The position numbers and the translations under genes are program-made. A model generated the notes under the pieces. That model made no database searches. It had not been told where the DNA came from and saw only the letters and a list, made by a program, of their open reading frames with translations. DNA of 64,000 nt from Xenophilus aerolatus (GTDB lineage: Bacteria; Pseudomonadota; Gammaproteobacteria; Burkholderiales; Burkholderiaceae_C). The DNA lies in NCBI GenBank assembly GCA_030418545.1, contig QAIB01000002.1, forward strand, positions 372,001-436,000. The letters are read 5' to 3'. This document shows positions 53,834 to 63,476 of the stretch, in pieces; position 1 is the first letter of the stretch, and each line of letters opens with the position of its first letter.

Positions 53834-55078
53834 TCAACGGTAGACCGGGAAGCGGCTGGTCAAGGCATGCACCTTGGCGCGCACCGCCTCGATGTTGGCC
53901 GCGTCGCGCGGGTTGTCCAGCACGTCGGCGATCAGGTTGGCGGTGATGCGCGCCTCTTCGTCCTTGAAGCCACGCGTGGTCATGGCCGGCGTGCCGACGC
54001 GCACGCCGCTGGTGACCATCGGCTTTTCCGGATCCTTGGGGATCGCATTCTTGTTGATGGTCATGTGGGCGCTGCCCAGCACGGCCTCGGCTTCCTTGCC
54101 GGTGATGCCCTTGGCGCGCAGGTCGACCAGCATGACGTGGCTCTGCGTGCCGCCGCTCACGATGCGCAGGCCGCGCTCGGTCAGGGTCCTGGCCACGATG
54201 TCCGCGTTCTTGACCACCTGTTGCTGGTAGCTCTTGAATTCGGGCGTCAGCGCTTCCTTGAAGGCCACCGCCTTGGCCGCGATCACGTGCATCAGCGGGC
54301 CGCCCTGCAGGCCGGGGAAGATGGCGCTGTTGATGGCCTTCTCGTGCTGCGACTTCATCAGGATGATGCCGCCGCGCGGTCCGCGCAGGCTTTTGTGGGT
54401 CGTGGACGTGACGACGTCGGCATGGGGCACGGGGTTGGGGTACACGCCCGCGGCGATGAGGCCGGCGTAGTGGGCCATGTCGACCATGAAGATCGCGCCC
54501 ACGTCCTTCGCCACCTTGGCGAAACGCTCGAAGTCGATGTGCAGCGAGTAGGCCGAGGCGCCGGCGATGATGAGCTTGGGGTGGTGCTCGTGCGCCTTGC
54601 GCTCCATCTCGTCGTAGTCGAGCACCTCGTTGGCGTCGAGGCCGTAGCTCACCACGTTGAACCACTTGCCGCTCATGTTCAACGGCATGCCGTGGGTCAG
54701 GTGGCCGCCTTCGGCCAGGCTCATGCCCATGATCGTGTCGCCGGGCTTGAGGAAGGCCAGCATGACGGCCTCGTTGGCCGACGCGCCGCAGTGGGCCTGC
54801 ACGTTGGCGGCGTCGGCACCGAAGAGCTGCTTGACGCGGTCGATGGCCAGCTGCTCGGCGATGTCGACGAACTCGCAGCCGCCGTAGTAACGCTTGCCGG
54901 GATAGCCTTCGGCGTACTTGTTGGTGAGCTGCGAGCCCTGGGCGGCCATGACGGCTGGCGAGGCGTAGTTCTCGCTGGCGATCAGCTCGATGTGGTGTTC
55001 CTGGCGGGCGTTTTCCTGCTGGATGGCGGCCCAGAGTTCGGGGTCGGTCTGTTCGACCAGGATGTCGCGGTGGTACAT
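53834..55078 (-). CDS. glyA: serine hydroxymethyltransferase
   Basis: A 414-residue PLP enzyme that makes glycine and methylene-tetrahydrofolate from serine. [20 protein letters not shown], the PLP lysine in [15 protein letters not shown], and the N-terminal tetrahydrofolate-site YGGCEFVD are intact. The ATG at 55078 follows AAGGA. A ZTP-type riboswitch precedes the gene, so expression should rise when 10-formyl-tetrahydrofolate is short. Probably cotranscribed with nrdR. Confidence 0.98.
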
Positions 55079-55124
55079 GGCAGTCCTTCGATGAAGATGG
55101 TCCTTGCGGGTTCAAACCAGACAA

Positions 55125-55250
55125 GGGCTGCCCAGGCGAACGGCTGAACGCCTGCGGAGCAGGCGGTGCGCTTCCCAGTGGTCATTCCACGTCAGCGCAG
55201 GCGTCCGTCACCGTGAGTGAGGGCGCTGCGCTTATCGCCAGTCGCGCACG
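55125..55250 (-). promoter_or_regulatory. ZTP (pfl) riboswitch upstream of glyA
   Basis: On the minus strand, in order: GCGACTGGCGA (55235-55245), a variable arm, then GTGG-AATGA-CCAC-TGGGAAGCGC, a variable hairpin, and CCGTTCGCCTGGGCAG (55128 onward), matching the conserved parts of ZTP riboswitches. Just downstream, GCAGCCCTT can pair with AAGGACTGC (8 of 9), which contains the glyA Shine-Dalgarno sequence, suggesting translational control. Ligand binding would free it by holding the CCTGGGC strand in the pseudoknot. Confidence 0.8.
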
Positions 55251-55298
55251 CGAAGAGTGTAGCCGACAGCCTGCACTCCGGAGGCAGGGGCTACCGGC

Positions 55299-56123
55299 TC
55301 AGGAGTCGGACAGCAGGGCCACCTTCTGTTCGGCGCTTTCCGGCTTGGCAGGTGCCACCACGGGCAGCGGCTGCGGCCGGACGTTGGGCGGCAGCGTCGG
55401 CACCGCGCGGCCGCCGGCCACCTGCTGCAGGCGCGCGTGCTCGGCCAGCACCTTGGCGGCATAGCCGCCGTCGTCCTCGAGGTTGGCTGCGCCGACGTAG
55501 TAGCGCAGGCCGCCTTCGAGGGAGCCCGCGCGGGCGATGCATTCCTGCAGCACCTTCACGCCGACGCGCATGTTCGTGACGGGGTCGAAGGCGGTGAGGA
55601 TGCCGCCGGCGCTCTCGTACTTGTCGCCATGGACACGGGTCATGACCTGCATCAGGCCCTGTGCGCCGACATGGCTCTGTGCGAAGGGGTTGAAGCTCGA
55701 TTCCACGGCCATGATGGCCAGGATGAGCGTCGGATCGAGCTTGGTCTTCCCGCCGATCTCGTAGGCCTCGGCAACCAGCACGCTCAGCGGCTCCACCGCG
55801 ACGCGGTACTTCTTGCTGAGCCAGTAGGCCACGGCGGCCTGCTGCTTCGGCAACTCGGCAGGACTCGCCGCCGTAGTGCGCTCGATCGCGTTGGGCTGCA
55901 GGTCGGTCGGCTCGGGCGCAGGCTTGCGCGACTCCAGCCAGGCCACCAGCTGCTGCTCGCCGGCATGCTGGAGGTCGGGGCGGGCGATCAGCGCGACCAC
56001 GGCGAACACCAGGGCCAGGCCGATGAGGGCGAAGCCGTTGTGCGTGATCTCGAAAAAGCCGTCGGCAATGTCGCCGGCCACGGTCCGCAGACTTCGGGCG
56101 CCGGCTTGCAGGGCCTGTTTCAT
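55299..56123 (-). CDS. membrane-anchored lytic transglycosylase (SLT domain)
   Basis: A 274-residue peptidoglycan lytic transglycosylase. A membrane anchor at about residues 29-48 (NGFALIGLALVFAVVALIAR) is followed by the SLT domain: TLILAIMAVESSFNPFAQSH with catalytic Glu141, GAQGLMQVMTRVHGDKY, and GGLRYYVGAANLEDDGGYAA. The C-terminus is Pro/Val-rich. The ATG at 56123 was preferred over a much longer frame that is not homologous. A good promoter is at 56324-56352 on the same strand. Confidence 0.9.
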   Translation of the reverse strand: MKQALQAGARSLRTVAGDIADGFFEITHNGFALIGLALVFAVVALIARPDLQHAGEQQLVAWLESRKPAPEPTDLQPNAIERTTAASPAELPKQQAAVAYWLSKKYRVAVEPLSVLVAEAYEIGGKTKLDPTLILAIMAVESSFNPFAQSHVGAQGLMQVMTRVHGDKYESAGGILTAFDPVTNMRVGVKVLQECIARAGSLEGGLRYYVGAANLEDDGGYAAKVLAEHARLQQVAGGRAVPTLPPNVRPQPLPVVAPAKPESAEQKVALLSDS

Positions 56124-56323
56124 TCTTCGCTCTTCCTTTCGATGCGGGTTTCGAGCGGAGGCAGGCACCCTGAGGTGGTGCCCGGCCGGGCATCGATGCG
56201 TCGCTTGGATTGGTAGGAACCGGCGCGTGCTGTGGAGGTTTGCACACGGGGCCGGTCTCGCCGGGGAGTCCGGCGGCGGTGGGAGCCCGGAAAGGACACA
56301 AGCGAAGTCCTGGGGCACGGCGC

Positions 56324-56352
56324 ATTCTAAAAACCGCTTAATACCCGGTCAA
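56324..56352 (-). promoter_or_regulatory. sigma-70 promoter of the lytic transglycosylase gene
   Basis: Minus strand TTGACC (56352-56347), 17 nt, TAGAAT (56329-56324). Near-consensus boxes with ideal spacing. The leader would be about 195 nt. It lies beside the probable plus-strand promoter region of the structured leader RNA (possible -10 TATGCT at 56372-56377). Confidence 0.75.
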
Positions 56353-56451
56353 TACTTAAGAATTCATTCTTTATGCTAACGGGGTATGTTCGAAGAAGGC
56401 CATGGACCACCCCGGTGCCATAAATAAATCGACTTGCGTTGCTGCTTTCAT

Positions 56452-56677
56452 GGGCCTAATCTGGCCCTGCCTGTTCTTCAGGCGCTTGCCGAGGCCCAGG
56501 ATCGACGTGGCGTTCCGCCCAACCGATTCGCCAGCCGAGGCCCCCAACGGTGGCAATCTCTTGCCACCTGCGAGGACGGAACCATTGACCTTCCGTCCGA
56601 GCAAAGAGATGGCAGCGGACTTGAGCCGGCCATCAAGCCCGGTGGCAAGACTTCACGGTCTGGCCATCGGGCTTTTT
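56452..56677 (+). ncRNA. candidate structured leader RNA / attenuator upstream of the DUF748 gene
   Basis: Five consecutive hairpins on the plus strand: GGGCC/GGCCC (56452-56467), GCCTG/CAGGC (56469-56483), GGTGGCA/TGCCACC (56549-56568), GGACGGAA/TTCCGTCC (56574-56598), and a terminator with a 16-position stem (15 paired) at 56636-56673 followed by five T. GGTGGCAA occurs both in hairpin 3 and in the terminator's 5' arm, and TTGCCACC (56561-56568) can pair with either, so antitermination is possible. GCAAAGAGAT (56601-56610) can also pair with ATCTCTTGC in hairpin 3. The RNA ends 44 bp before the DUF748 start. It matches no riboswitch class I recognise. Together with 56124-56323 this fills the 597-bp gap. 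Confidence 0.6.
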
Positions 56678-56720
56678 CATTGGGGGGAACGGCCGCGCAC
56701 TTCGGGCACACTCAGCCGTG

Positions 56721-59700
56721 ATGAAGAACGCTGCTTGGCTGAAACAGAACAAATGGGTGCGGCGCGGGATCGTCGCCTTGGCGTCGCTGCTGGTGCTGTG
56801 GCTGGTGCTCTGGCTGGCCGTGCCGCCGATTGCCAAGAGCCAGCTGCAGAAGATCGCCAGCGAGAAGCTCGGGCGCACCGTCACGGTCGGCAAGGTCGAC
56901 TTCAAGCCCTGGAGCCTCGAACTCACCATCGACGATCTGCGCATCGCGTCGGCCCAGGCCGGCGCGCCGCCGCAGCTCGAGGTGCGGCGCCTGTATGCCG
57001 ATGCCGAACTCCAGTCGGTGCTGCGCCTGGCGCCGGTGATCGACGCCGTGAGCATCGAAGGCCCCACCGTCCGGCTCGCCCATCTGACGGACGGCAAATA
57101 CGACATCGACGACATCCTGGCGCGCTTCGCGCCCAAGCCTGACGATCCGCCGCCGGGCGAGCCGCAGCGATTCGCCATCTACAACATCGCCATCACCGGC
57201 GGTTCGGTCGATTTCGACGACCAGCCCGTCAAGCGCAAGCACGAACTGCGCGAGCTCGAACTCAAGGTGCCGTTCATCAGCAACCTGGCGTCCAAGCGCG
57301 AGGTCAAGGTCGAGCCCAAGCTGGCCTTCGCGCTCAACGGCTCGCATTTCGACTCGTCCGCCTTCAGCACGCCCTTCGCCGACAACCGCAAGACCGACGC
57401 ACAGCTGCGCTTCGCCGACCTGGACCTCGCCCCCTACCTGGGCTACGTCCCGAGCAGCCTGCCGGTGAAGGTGCTGGCAGGCACGCTCGGTGCCGACCTG
57501 AAGGTGGACTTCGAGCGCGCCGACGCGGCGGCGCTGAGCATCAGCGGCACCGTCGAGGCCCGCAACATCAAGGTGGCCGACGCGCAGGGCCGCGACCTGC
57601 TGGGCTTCGGTTCGCTCAAGATCGGGTTGGCCGACGTCCGGCCGCTGGACCGCAAGGTGCACCTGGGCAGCGTGGCGCTGGCCGACCCGCAGTTGGCCGT
57701 GGCCCGCGATGCGGCCGGCAAGCTCAATCTCCTGGCCACCAATCCGGCCACCGGCGCTACAGAAAAAGTAGCGCCTCCCGCAGCAGCGGCGAGCGCTCCG
57801 GCCCAGAATGCCCCTGCAGCTGCGGGCTGGGCATTGCAGGTCGACAAGGTGGCGCTCCAGGGCGGCAGCGTGACCTGGCGCGACGAAACCACGCAGCCCG
57901 CAGCGGCCGTGCAGATCAAGGACTTGCAGGTGGAGGCCAGCGGGATCGTCTGGCCCATGGCGAAGCCGGCGCGCTTCGGCGGCTCGCTCAACCTGGCAGG
58001 CGCACCCTTCAAGTTCCAGGGCGAGGGGACCGACAAGGCGGCGCAGGTCCAGACCGAGGTCGAGGCGCTGCCGCTGTCGCTGGCCGCGCCTTATCTTGCC
58101 AAGAGCATGGAACCGACGCTCGACGGCAAGCTGGGCGGCCAGGTCGACGTCAGCTGGGCGGCGCCGAACCTGCAACTCCACGCCCGCAAGGTCTCGGTCG
58201 ACAACCTCGCGCTGACGCAGGGCAAGACGGCGCTTGCCAGTGCCGGCCGTTTCGAGGTTGCCGACGCCCGGGCCGACCTGACCGCGCACACGCTGGCCAT
58301 CGGCAGCTTCACCGCGACCAATCCGAAGGTGCGGGTCGAGCGCGATGGCGAGAAGCGCTGGATGTTCGAGCGCTGGATGCGCACGCCCGCGGGCGGCGGC
58401 GACGCTCCCGTGGCCGCGCCCAAGGCGCCGGGCGCCGAAGCCGCGCCGGGCAACGCCAAGCCCTGGCAGCTCAGCATCGCCACGCTGGCGGTGGACAACG
58501 GCGCCGTCAGCTACGCCGACAAGGCCAACGCCGGCACGCCGGTCGAGGTCGAGATCACCGCGCTGAAGCTCAAGCTGAACAAGCTGGCACCGAACACGGC
58601 CACGGTGTCACCCGTCGAGCTGTCGGGCCGCATCGGAGCGGGCCGTCGGGCCGATCCGGGCCGCTTCGACTTCAAGGGCCAGCTGGTGCTCAAGCCCCTG
58701 TCGGCCGAGGGCCGGCTGGAGACCTCGGCCATCCCTTCGCATGCCTTCAAGGCCTACTACGCCGACGCGCTCAACGTCGACATCCGCCGCTCTTACACCA
58801 ACTACCGCGGCACGCTGCGCTTCGCGCAGCTGCCGGCCGGCATCAGCCTCAAGCTCGCCGGGGACACGGCGATCGAGGATTTCCGCGCCAACAGCGCCAC
58901 GCTCACGCAGAAGGGCAGCTTCGGCAACGGCAACCAGCAACTGCTGAGCTGGAAGGCGTTGAGCCTGCGCGGCCTGCAGGTGGACCTGTCGCCCGGCGCG
59001 CCGCTCAAGGTGGATGTGCGCGAAACCACGCTCACCGACGTGTTCGCGCGGATCATCGTCGAGGAGAGCGGCCGGCTGAACCTGCAGGGCCTGACCAAGA
59101 AGGGCGCCGAAGAATCCTCGGTCGCCGATGCGTCCAGGCCTGACCCGGCCACCCGGCGCCAGCGCGGCGGCGGCACCGTCACCACCAACGAGCCGGGGGC
59201 GGCGCCCGCACGCCCGGTGTCGGCCGAGGAGATGGTCGGCGGCGCGGCGCCGGCGGCGCCCACGGCACAGGCCGCCCGGGCCGAGGCGGCGCCCGACCCG
59301 ATGGCGCCGGTCATCAACTTCGGCCCGGTCAGCGTGGTCAACGGCAAGGTCGACTTCACCGACCTCTTCATCAAGCCCAACTATTCGGCCGACCTGAGCG
59401 AGCTCACCGGCAAGCTCAGCGCCTTCTCGTCGCGGCCCAGGGAGGGCCAGCCGGCGCTGGCGGATCTCGAGTTGCGCGGCAAGGCGCAACAGACTGCGGC
59501 GCTGGAGATCACCGGCAAGCTCAACCCCCTGGCCAAGCCGCTGGAGCTGGACATCACCGCCAAGATGCGCGACCTCGATCTGCCGCCGCTGTCGCCGTAT
59601 TCGGTGCGTTATGCCGGCCATGGCATCGAGCGGGGCAAGCTCAGCCTGGACGTGAACTACAAGGTGGCGCCCGACGGCCGCCTCACGGCCACCAACAACC

Positions 59701-60503
59701 TCGTGCTCAACCAGCTGCAGTTCGGCGAGGAAGTGAAGGGCGCCCCCAACAGCCTGCCGGTGCGGCTGGCCGTTGCGCTGCTGGCCGATCGCAACGGCGT
59801 GATCGACGTCGACCTGCCGCTGTCCGGCTCGCTCAACGACCCGCAGTTCAGCGTCGGCCCGCTGATCTGGAAGGCGGTGCTCAACCTCATCACCAAGGCC
59901 ATCACGGCGCCCTTCAGCCTGCTGACGGGGGGGCTCGGCGGCGGGGGCGGCGATTCCAGCGTCGTGCCCTTCGACCCCGGCAGTTCGACCCTGACGCCGG
60001 CGGCCACGCAGAGCCTGGACAAGGTCATCAAGGCCCTGAACGACCGCCCGGCCTTGCGCATGACCGTGGTCGGCGTCTCGAGCTTCGAGAAGGAGCGCGA
60101 GGCCTACAAGCGCCAGCGCCTGCGCCAGCTCGCGCTGTCCGAGAAGCGGCGCGTCGCCGTGCGCGCCGGGCAGGACCCGGCCCAGGTCGAGCCCGTGACC
60201 GACGCCGAATACCCGAAGCTGCTGGAGGCGGTCTACAAGCGCGCGGACATCACCAAGCCGCGCAACATGGTCGGCCTGGCCAAGGACCTGCCTACCGAGG
60301 AAATGGAGAAGCTGCTGCTGGCCAGCATCCCGGTCGACGAGCAGGCGATCCGGGAGCTGGCCGTGGCGCGCGGCGCGGCCGTGCGCGACTACCTGCTGGA
60401 GCACAAGCTCGCCTCCGATCGCCTCTTCCTCGGTGCCGTGCGAACCGACGGCGGCGGTGCGGACTGGAAGCCCGGGGCCGAGCTCAAGCTCGACACCCGC
60501 TGA
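56721..60503 (+). CDS. DUF748 (AsmA-like) envelope protein
   Basis: A 1260-residue protein with an N-terminal membrane helix (WVRRGIVALASLLVLWLVLW), then long AsmA-like repeats (FKPWSLELTIDDLRIASA, GSVDFDDQPVKRKHELRELE, VNGKVDFTDLFIKPNYSADL) and the DUF748 end VVPFDPGSSTLTPAATQSLD. Such proteins span the periplasm and are linked to outer-membrane lipid transport or assembly. Starts are ATG 56721 or the preceding GTG. An Ala/Pro-rich insertion at residues about 345-370 contains a repeat read as GATEKVA. It follows the terminator-bearing leader by 44 bp. Confidence 0.9.
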   Translation: MKNAAWLKQNKWVRRGIVALASLLVLWLVLWLAVPPIAKSQLQKIASEKLGRTVTVGKVDFKPWSLELTIDDLRIASAQAGAPPQLEVRRLYADAELQSVLRLAPVIDAVSIEGPTVRLAHLTDGKYDIDDILARFAPKPDDPPPGEPQRFAIYNIAITGGSVDFDDQPVKRKHELRELELKVPFISNLASKREVKVEPKLAFALNGSHFDSSAFSTPFADNRKTDAQLRFADLDLAPYLGYVPSSLPVKVLAGTLGADLKVDFERADAAALSISGTVEARNIKVADAQGRDLLGFGSLKIGLADVRPLDRKVHLGSVALADPQLAVARDAAGKLNLLATNPATGATEKVAPPAAAASAPAQNAPAAAGWALQVDKVALQGGSVTWRDETTQPAAAVQIKDLQVEASGIVWPMAKPARFGGSLNLAGAPFKFQGEGTDKAAQVQTEVEALPLSLAAPYLAKSMEPTLDGKLGGQVDVSWAAPNLQLHARKVSVDNLALTQGKTALASAGRFEVADARADLTAHTLAIGSFTATNPKVRVERDGEKRWMFERWMRTPAGGGDAPVAAPKAPGAEAAPGNAKPWQLSIATLAVDNGAVSYADKANAGTPVEVEITALKLKLNKLAPNTATVSPVELSGRIGAGRRADPGRFDFKGQLVLKPLSAEGRLETSAIPSHAFKAYYADALNVDIRRSYTNYRGTLRFAQLPAGISLKLAGDTAIEDFRANSATLTQKGSFGNGNQQLLSWKALSLRGLQVDLSPGAPLKVDVRETTLTDVFARIIVEESGRLNLQGLTKKGAEESSVADASRPDPATRRQRGGGTVTTNEPGAAPARPVSAEEMVGGAAPAAPTAQAARAEAAPDPMAPVINFGPVSVVNGKVDFTDLFIKPNYSADLSELTGKLSAFSSRPREGQPALADLELRGKAQQTAALEITGKLNPLAKPLELDITAKMRDLDLPPLSPYSVRYAGHGIERGKLSLDVNYKVAPDGRLTATNNLVLNQLQFGEEVKGAPNSLPVRLAVALLADRNGVIDVDLPLSGSLNDPQFSVGPLIWKAVLNLITKAITAPFSLLTGGLGGGGGDSSVVPFDPGSSTLTPAATQSLDKVIKALNDRPALRMTVVGVSSFEKEREAYKRQRLRQLALSEKRRVAVRAGQDPAQVEPVTDAEYPKLLEAVYKRADITKPRNMVGLAKDLPTEEMEKLLLASIPVDEQAIRELAVARGAAVRDYLLEHKLASDRLFLGAVRTDGGGADWKPGAELKLDTR
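57753..57775. repeat. GGCGCTAC-N7-GTAGCGCC hairpin inside the DUF748 gene
   Basis: Perfect 8-bp stem around AGAAAAA. Read in frame as GATEKVAP. The copy in the DUF349 gene has the same stem and loop length and is read as GATEVVAP. Confidence 0.8.
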
Positions 60504-60650: not shown

Positions 60651-63476
60651 GTGACCCAAGCTACCCCCAAACACGACCTTTCGTCCCTCGACCAGCTCAC
60701 GGGCGGCGCTTTCACCGCGCCCACCTCGGGCGAGCGAGCGCAGCGCATCCGCGACTGGCTCGCCACCGACCCGGCGGCGGAGCTGATGCAGGAGGTCTTC
60801 AAGGAGCTCAGCGGGCGCGACAAGGGCGCCGCCCGTGCGTTGCGCGAGCGGCTGGACGAGATCAAGCGCGCCAAGGGCCAGGAGGCGATCGCCGCCGAGT
60901 GGTCCGACAAGGCGCGCGCGCTGCTGGAGCAGCCGCGCCTGAACATCGCCGACGCGATGGCCTGGCAGCGCGACGCCGCCAAGGCCGGCGCGCCGCTGTC
61001 GCGCGAGCCGCTGGCCGGCTTCAAGACGCAGCTGGCCGAGCGCATCAAGGGCATCGAGGACCTGCAGCACCGCGCGCAGGTCCACCGCGAAGCCGCCGTG
61101 CTGCTCGCGCAGCGCTTCGAGGTGCTGTCCACCAAGGGTTGGCAGGACGCCCGGGCCGCCGAGGAGGGCCTGCGCGGCGACGTGCAGCACTGGCTGGCCC
61201 AGGCGCAGGAAATCACGCAGGACGCCAACTGGGGCAGCCTCGACGCCCGCTTCGCGCCGCAGCTGGACGCCTCGAAGGCGCAGCTGCAGGTGGTGTCGGA
61301 CGCCTTCCACAGCGCGCTGGCGCAGACCGTGGCTGCCGCCGCGGACGCCGCCGCGCCGCTGCCGCCCGTGCCCGTCTGGGCCGACGAGATCCGTGCTTCT
61401 CGCGGGCTGCCGCTCGAATCGGCACCTCCCGCACCGGCCAAGCCCGCGGCGCCCAAGGTCGACCCGGCCGCCCGCGCCGCGGCCGAGCAGGCCGTGCAGG
61501 CGGCGCTCGCCAAGCTCGAGCAGGAAACCGCCGAAGGCCACGGCAAGGCCAGCCAGGGCGCCGCGGCCGCGCTGCGCGCCGTGCTCAAGGAACACGGCCG
61601 CCTGGTCGGCAACGAGCTCGAGGCGCGCGTGCATGCCGCGCTCGTGGCCGCCGGCGAACTCGAAGGCTGGCAGCGCTGGAGCGCCGACAAGGTGCGCGAA
61701 GACCTGGTCGCCAAGGCCGAGGGCCTGCTCAACCGCCCAGAAGGCCAGGCACTGGGCGGCCGCAAGATGCAGGAACAGCTGCGCGCCCTGCGCGAGCAGT
61801 GGAAGCAGGCCGACCAGGGCGGCGCCCCCAACCATGCGCTGTGGAAGCGCTTCGACGAGGCCTGCAACCAGGCCCACAAGGTGGTCGAGGCCTGGCTGGA
61901 GAAGGTGCGTGCCGACGCGGCCGAGCACCGCGCCCAGCGCCTGGCGCTGATCGAGGAACTCAAGGCCTGGGCGGCGGCCCATGCCGACGACGACCTGAAG
62001 TCGCGCAACCGCAGCCTGCACCAGTTCGCCAACCGCTGGCGCGATGCGGGCCACGTGAGCGAGAAGGTCTTCGCCGAGCTGCAGCCGCAGTGGAACGAGG
62101 CCATGGCCGCTGCCCGCGGCCCGCTCGAAGCGGCCCAGAAGGCCAGCGTCGAGCGTCGCCAGCAGATGATTGCCGAGGCCACCGAGCTCGGCGCCGCGCC
62201 GCAGCTGCGCATCGACGCCGTCAAGGCGCTGCAGCAGCGCTGGCAGGCCGAGGCCCAGGCCGTGCCGCTGGAGCGTCGCCACGAACAGAAGCTGTGGGAC
62301 GCGTTCCGCAAGCCGATCGACGACGCCTTCCAGCGCAAGACGGCCGACCGCGAGCGCGCCGCCGCCGCGCTGGGCGAACATGACCGCGCCGTGCTCGAGG
62401 CCTCGAAGGCGCTGGAGGCCGCCAACGGCACCGGCGACGCGCAGAAGATCCGTGCCGCCATGGCCGCCCTCGAGGCCGCGCTGCGCGGCCAGCGCGCGGC
62501 GCAGTCGGCCCCTGTTTCCGACGCCAGTCCGGCTGCAGCGCCCGACGGTCCTGCGCAGGGCGCTACGGAAGTCGTAGCGCCTGGCCAGGCCGCCGCCGAG
62601 TTCGCGGAGAGCGCACAGCTCAGCGACGAAGGCACGGCCGATGCCGGCAGCGCCGCGCCTGCTCCTGCGGCCGCCGACCTGGTCGCGCCGGCGGACGGCG
62701 CCGATCCGTCGGCGCGCGCCGACGCCGAGGAAGCGCGCGAGGCCGCCGCACCCGCCGCGGCACCCAAGCCCGCGCCGCGTCCCGTGGTCGCCGTGCGTGG
62801 TGACGACCGGCCCGGTGCCCAGCGCCCGGCCACGGCTGCAGTCCAGGGCGGCCGCGGCCGTCCGGGCGACCGGCGCGACGCGCGTGGCGCACCGGCCGGC
62901 CGTGGCAACGACCGCGCCGGCCCCCGCAGCGACGACCGACGTGGCGGCGGCGACCGCTTCGGCGGGGACCGGGGTGGCCGCTTCGGCGACCGCCCGCCGC
63001 GCGAAGACCGCGGTCCGCGCCTGGGCGATACCGCCTTCCGCGCGCAGCGCGACGCGCTCGAGCACGCCCAGGCCGCCCTGCGCAAGCTGGCGGCGCAGGC
63101 GCAGGGCGAGGTCGTCACCCAACTGCTCGGGGCCTGGGAGCAGCGCGACGGCGCGGCCCTGCCCAGCCCGCAGGACCTGGGCCGCGGCGTGTCGGCGTCG
63201 GTGCGCTCGCAATGGGCGCAGGCGATCGGCGGTGCGCCCGCCGGCGACGCGGGCGAAGCGCTGCTGCGTCTGGAGATGGCGGCCGACGTGCCGACGCCGG
63301 CCGACCAGCTCGACGCGCGCCGCGCTCTGCAGCTCAAGCTGCTCACCCAGCGCAACCAGCCCGGCCCGGCCGAGACCTGGGCGCAGGATGCCGGCCGCGT
63401 GCTGGCGACAGCGCACGACGCGGCCAACGCGCGGCGCCTGCAGAGCGCGCTGCGTACGCTGCTGCGCAAGGGCTGA
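60651..63476 (+). CDS. DUF349 protein with RG-rich disordered tail
   Basis: A 941-residue, mostly helical protein with several DUF349 repeats (LREQWKQADQGGAPNHALWK, QFANRWRDAGHVSEKVFAEL, ALQQRWQAEAQAVPLERRHE). A repeat-derived Ala/Pro linker lies near residues 628-690 (GATEVVA at 637). Residues about 735-800 are an Arg/Gly/Asp-rich segment with many RGG/RG units (GGDRFGGDRGGRFGDR), like RNA-binding disordered tails. A final helical domain follows. The start is a GTG at 60651 without a clear Shine-Dalgarno sequence. DUF349 function is poorly known; RNA binding is plausible. Confidence 0.82.
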   Translation: MTQATPKHDLSSLDQLTGGAFTAPTSGERAQRIRDWLATDPAAELMQEVFKELSGRDKGAARALRERLDEIKRAKGQEAIAAEWSDKARALLEQPRLNIADAMAWQRDAAKAGAPLSREPLAGFKTQLAERIKGIEDLQHRAQVHREAAVLLAQRFEVLSTKGWQDARAAEEGLRGDVQHWLAQAQEITQDANWGSLDARFAPQLDASKAQLQVVSDAFHSALAQTVAAAADAAAPLPPVPVWADEIRASRGLPLESAPPAPAKPAAPKVDPAARAAAEQAVQAALAKLEQETAEGHGKASQGAAAALRAVLKEHGRLVGNELEARVHAALVAAGELEGWQRWSADKVREDLVAKAEGLLNRPEGQALGGRKMQEQLRALREQWKQADQGGAPNHALWKRFDEACNQAHKVVEAWLEKVRADAAEHRAQRLALIEELKAWAAAHADDDLKSRNRSLHQFANRWRDAGHVSEKVFAELQPQWNEAMAAARGPLEAAQKASVERRQQMIAEATELGAAPQLRIDAVKALQQRWQAEAQAVPLERRHEQKLWDAFRKPIDDAFQRKTADRERAAAALGEHDRAVLEASKALEAANGTGDAQKIRAAMAALEAALRGQRAAQSAPVSDASPAAAPDGPAQGATEVVAPGQAAAEFAESAQLSDEGTADAGSAAPAPAAADLVAPADGADPSARADAEEAREAAAPAAAPKPAPRPVVAVRGDDRPGAQRPATAAVQGGRGRPGDRRDARGAPAGRGNDRAGPRSDDRRGGGDRFGGDRGGRFGDRPPREDRGPRLGDTAFRAQRDALEHAQAALRKLAAQAQGEVVTQLLGAWEQRDGAALPSPQDLGRGVSASVRSQWAQAIGGAPAGDAGEALLRLEMAADVPTPADQLDARRALQLKLLTQRNQPGPAETWAQDAGRVLATAHDAANARRLQSALRTLLRKG
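62559..62581. repeat. GGCGCTAC-N7-GTAGCGCC hairpin inside the DUF349 gene
   Basis: Perfect 8-bp stem around GGAAGTC. In frame as GATEVVAP, close to the copy in the DUF748 gene. Confidence 0.8.

Follow-up and report, generated by a model that had tools for sequence, protein, structure and literature searches.

Results

The region studied lies in a window (the whole 64,000-nucleotide stretch of Xenophilus aerolatus DNA that was analysed) between a lytic transglycosylase gene and a DUF748/AsmA-like gene, and carries a predicted small RNA with its promoter, a row of hairpins and a terminator (Table 1). In the window, ~43 nt separate the end of the terminator from the DUF748 ATG. The strong promoter of the transglycosylase gene is located ~200 nt upstream of its ATG and therefore a long GC-rich leader is predicted for this gene (56124-56324, minus strand), which is kept only in close relatives. 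The ZMP/ZTP riboswitch is the sole Rfam match in the window and is also found at two further loci (L014 and L050). A tRNA-Ala (cgc) called by ARAGORN inside the DUF349 gene (62685-62773, minus strand) is probably a false positive.

Table 1. Features of the locus and its surroundings, in window coordinates
Feature	Position	Strand	Remarks
-35 element TTGCGT of the small RNA promoter	56434-56439	+	17-nt spacer to the -10 element
-10 element TAATCT	56457-56462	+	TA invariant across the family alignment
Predicted small RNA, ~209 nt	56469-56677	+	conserved promoter, covarying structure and terminator; inferred ends
5' hairpin GCCTG-TTCTT-CAGGC	56469-56483	+	at the predicted start; compensatory variants among relatives
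Domain 2 (middle domain)	56488-56541	+	variable; degenerate in the window
Hairpin 3, GGTGGCAA-TCTC-TTGCCACC	56549-56568	+	significant covariation at 3/8 pairs
Hairpin 4, TGC..GGACGGAA...TTCCGTCC..GCA	56569-56603	+	double changes at 11/11 pairs, 7 significant
Hairpin 5, GATGGCAGCGGACTTGAGCCGGCCATC	56608-56634	+	compensatory GATGG/CCATC vs GACGG/CCGTC; one inner pair significant
Intrinsic terminator, AAGCCCGGTGGCAAGAC...GGTCTGGCCATCGGGCTTTTT	56635-56677	+	CCCG/CGGG core; 9 covarying pairs
-10-like box CACACT	56707-56712	+	8 nt upstream of the DUF748 ATG; may be a promoter of DUF748 itself, giving a leaderless mRNA
DUF748/AsmA-like gene, C-terminal OmpA domain	56721-60503	+	usual, not constant, downstream neighbour of the RNA
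SLT-domain lytic transglycosylase gene	55299-56123	-	divergent upstream neighbour; PF01464, E 3.4e-17
Promoter TTGACC-17-TAGAAT of the transglycosylase gene	56324-56352	-	10/12 consensus matches
ZMP/ZTP riboswitch (RF01750)	55123-55255	-	upstream of glyA; Rfam match, 53.5 bits
glyA	53834-55078	-	

A sigma70-type promoter, TTGCGT-17-TAATCT (56434-56462), is predicted directly upstream of the RNA, with a -35 element that matches at 3 of 6 positions in the window, and in most homologues a sigma70-like promoter precedes the 5' hairpin by 5-7 nt. A TANNNT box adjoins a perfect hairpin in 126 of 141 homologues compared to 95 of 705 shuffled sequences (13%). With a -35 element of at least 4/6 matches at a distance of 16-18 nt included, these counts become 107 of 141 and 9 of 705 (1.3%). 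The original prediction had described a leader with five hairpins, the first of which (GGGCCTAATCTGGCCC, 56452-56467) is the -10 region of this conserved promoter; we therefore place the start of the RNA near 56469. Six structural elements are counted instead. At its other end the RNA has an intrinsic terminator of its own, and the strong terminator with five T that had been predicted is indeed present, with the T run at 56673-56677. Approximately 10 nt upstream of the -35 element, a ATTGAAAA tract is conserved across many genera and is possibly a UP element or a regulator site.

The plus strand of 56452-56720 folds with -138.7 kcal/mol (z -5.9 against dinucleotide shuffles), and the RNA trimmed to 56469-56676 reaches a z of -6.1 against shuffles. 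The minus strand, too, has a stable fold (z -4.8), but a T run follows the last hairpin on the plus strand only, which is also the direction of the promoter.

The secondary structure of the RNA is conserved. In the four modelled elements (hairpins 3, 4 and 5 and the terminator, 44 base pairs), 90.9% of cells are paired and double changes occur at 35 of the 44 pairs among 100 distinct sequences, while shifting the partners by one column lowers the pairing from 91% to 45-50%. An unfitted MAFFT alignment agrees, with 87% of cells paired and double changes at 35 pairs. We used a custom-made covariation test with a tree-based null, in which parsimony substitutions were redistributed over a FastTree tree, and scored pairs by the G statistic with average-product correction. 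In an alignment that was fitted to the structure, which favours covariation, this test is significant for 20 of the 44 structure pairs compared to 1 of 8602 other pairs, where ~10 are expected by the null. With the unfitted MAFFT alignment and a stricter all-pairs threshold, no more than 2 pairs are significant, and both belong to the structure. Hairpin 3 is paired in 99.5% of cells, and the CCCG/CGGG core of the terminator is retained in all but one of the 100 sequences. The variants of the 5' hairpin likewise compensate each other (GCCTG/CAGGC, GCTTG/CAAGC, GTCTG/CAGAC and GTCCG/CGGAC). Domain 2, between the 5' hairpin and hairpin 3, is a conserved GCCGGTAGGAGCCAG...GAAGCAGCCCCGGC in many other genera and absent in a few; it has diverged in the group of the window. 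At two loci (L074 and L086) the middle domain is wholly missing and hairpins 3-5 and the terminator are retained.

A DNA search matched the core in 12 of 13 other genomes of the same genus and in one other genus. A covariance model built from the core alignment (R1) matched 74 of 201 family genomes; R1 matches below ~31 bits are mostly terminator-only, and neighbourhood and score were used to sort the true homologues, with L087 (29 bits, R1) retained because of its locus. Within the window's family, a second model (R2), built from 73 sequences, detects the RNA in 157 of 401 genomes, representing 61 of the 141 genera (E<=1e-6). In 399 order-level and 274 class-level genomes from outside the family, all matches score 33 bits or less; those of 26-32 bits, including the inspected L112, resemble unrelated terminators and were rejected as homologues in other families or orders. 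In a pattern scan of named genomes, the matches belong to the Comamonadaceae wherever the genus is given, namely to Variovorax, Acidovorax, Paracidovorax, Ramlibacter, Hylemonella, Hydrogenophaga, Curvibacter, Rhodoferax, Xenophilus, Pseudacidovorax, Verminephrobacter, Caenimonas and Alicycliphilus. The RNA is single copy and located between protein genes, and no plasmid copies were found.

As to INDEPENDENCE from DUF748, an analysis with anchor proteins shows that the RNA is divergent from an SLT lytic transglycosylase gene and glyA nearly everywhere. Among the 79 true homologues left once false matches had been removed, the downstream gene is DUF748 in 56, and DUF349, with DUF748 absent, in 16; DUF748 or DUF349 adjoins the RNA in approximately nine of ten genomes. 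At the remaining loci other arrangements are found: the next gene is a convergent cytochrome c gene (L080 and L082), an antisense IS4/5-type transposase gene lies between the RNA and the next gene (L085), PqqD and asparagine-synthase genes are downstream (L055), or the RNA is flanked by a tRNA and other genes in the vicinity of dnaX (L086). The relocated copies L080, L082 and L086 retain the promoter with its 17-nt spacer and the terminator. The conservation of the RNA is independent of the neighbouring gene. In the gap between the RNA and DUF349, a conserved TATATATAGATAATGGGG box occurs ~60-130 nt past the terminator (L041, L046 and L048) and is probably the DUF349 promoter.

Discussion

Taken together, the promoter, covarying fold, terminator and distribution make it likely that the plus strand of 56469-56677 is a separate, stand-alone gene and that its product, a structured non-coding RNA of ~209 nt, belongs to a new, Comamonadaceae-wide family. 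RNA polymerase would transcribe the RNA as a separate unit, and its end hairpins would stabilise it; its terminator is predicted to be unconditional. The RNA is non-coding: its ORFs are shorter than those of shuffled sequences, and a small protein was rejected as the product on this ground. The original prediction was right to see here an unrecognised structured RNA that falls outside every Rfam class and has a real terminator, and the reading that it held in reserve, an independent small RNA that ends just before the gene, is the one that our analysis supports.

Does the RNA also serve its downstream gene? As a tentative refinement of the stand-alone reading, our confidence in the two being overlapping, the RNA may be mainly an independent small RNA while partial read-through supplies some of the transcription of DUF748 or DUF349. 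The lasting synteny and the short gap speak for this. In the window there is no full-consensus promoter between the terminator and the DUF748 ATG, nor is such a promoter enriched in the gap, and read-through into DUF748 is therefore possible. Against this stand the contexts in which a downstream partner is missing, and the many DUF748 starts that have a -10-like box of their own: 31 of all 56 DUF748 loci (26 of 26 in a hand-picked subset) have a NANANT box 4-10 nt upstream of the start, compared to 4.4% in shuffles, with a pattern that was chosen after the sequences had been viewed. Shine-Dalgarno tetramers precede DUF748 at only 4 of the 56 loci. The NANANT box and the rarity of Shine-Dalgarno sequences together suggest that the DUF748 mRNA is separate and leaderless. 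A GAAAACTC/AAACTC box recurs ~20 nt before the DUF748 ATG at five loci (L030, L034, L036, L038 and L059), where there is little Shine-Dalgarno signal at DUF748 and a leaderless mRNA is possible.

We regard it as improbable that the region is a cis-acting leader, a riboswitch or attenuator with conditional termination, of a DUF748-DUF349 operon, which is how it was originally interpreted. Strong same-strand synteny with DUF748 or DUF349, a complex conserved fold that ends in a terminator and the short distance to the ATG in the window would fit such a leader. The sequence elements on which the proposed switch was built are also as described: the 8-mer GGTGGCAA occurs twice (56549-56556 and 56641-56648), and its complement TTGCCACC lies at 56561-56568. 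However, a single 8-mer repeat is in line with chance for 269 nt (~0.5 repeated pairs expected by a hand calculation). The original prediction had looked to compensatory changes in hairpins 3 and 4 and to conservation of the alternate GGTGGCAA/TTGCCACC pair; the former are present, and the latter is not found, as only 3 of 73 sequences can form the full alternate helix, against 68 of 73 for the full hairpin 3. The alternate helix is paired in 62.5% of cells compared to 61.3% in shuffles, and the two-copy match therefore characterises a small clade and is not shared family-wide. The mutually exclusive terminator and antiterminator that had been proposed is thus not conserved; other possible antiterminators were looked for only by eye. 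Hairpin 5 abuts the terminator, which stays free to form. The additional suggestion that GCAAAGAGAT competes for the same strand did not hold either, as a complete helix with the hairpin 3 loop, as pseudoknot or competitor, exists in only two close relatives (2 of 73). Finally, constant placement in the 5' leader of a regulated gene fails on convergent, unrelated and IS-interrupted downstream contexts, as loss, replacement or antisense orientation of DUF748 leaves the RNA in place, and the -10-like box that often precedes DUF748 argues in the same direction.

It is very unlikely that the RNA is a divergent form of a known class, for example of 6S RNA (RF00013). The length of ~200 nt, the single copy and the conservation are shared with 6S RNA, but no Rfam 15 family matches the RNA in the window (E<=10) or in the homologous loci (E<=1), there is no RF00013 match at the locus, and the RNA folds into several hairpins in a row and not into one long bulged hairpin. 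Another contig of this genome carries a separate, weak 6S candidate, which at 32 bits stays below the cut-off. The ZMP/ZTP riboswitch, ~1.3 kb away, is likewise a structured leader in the same neighbourhood, but it is on the minus strand, of a known class and unrelated in sequence. S17/bdhR1-type RNAs are, like the RNA described here, conserved betaproteobacterial small RNAs with an intrinsic terminator; they measure 67-190 nt, have glycosyltransferase and coq7 neighbours, and contain a stretch of 27 nt that is 100% conserved and takes in single-stranded pairing sites (PMC11722255). In contrast, our RNA has other gene neighbours and no conserved unpaired run, and S17 of Bordetella pertussis, checked against the description in that paper, is a different RNA (PMC11722255). 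No description of the RNA was found in the open-access papers that we searched. Hairpins that arose by chance or from repeats, for instance a cluster of terminators without RNA function, would suit a GC-rich intergenic region but are scarcely credible, as they are refuted by the covariation and also run counter to the family-wide conservation and the conserved promoter.

How might the stand-alone RNA act? It is probably trans-acting. With Hfq- and ProQ-associated small RNAs it shares an own promoter, stable hairpins, an intrinsic terminator and a single intergenic copy, but it differs from these in that its conserved bases are concentrated in helices and a conserved single-stranded seed is lacking: no unpaired run of at least 3 nt is conserved at 85% identity in the RNA. 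An anti-Shine-Dalgarno loop seed was rejected on the same count, and the loop letters vary. With these features, recognition by a protein or by hairpin loops seems likelier than linear-seed antisense pairing, and the RNA seems to stand apart from the classic small RNAs that pair through a seed. It might, speculatively, act in trans via an RNA-binding protein (of the ProQ or Hfq type, or a regulator that is sequestered) or via hairpin-loop pairing. A further, doubtful possibility is that it constitutes a new, family-wide class of structured RNA that binds protein in place of seed pairing, as a housekeeping or global regulator of the rank of 6S or CsrB.

Soil, water and plants are rich in Comamonadaceae, which include Variovorax, Acidovorax, Paracidovorax, Ramlibacter, Rhodoferax, Hydrogenophaga and others. 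We found no catalogued RNA of this kind for the family, and the RNA, present in at least 61 genera, is not in Rfam 15. One false riboswitch candidate is hereby removed, the covariance model can be used for annotating Comamonadaceae genomes, and the RNA lends itself to expression mapping and deletion.
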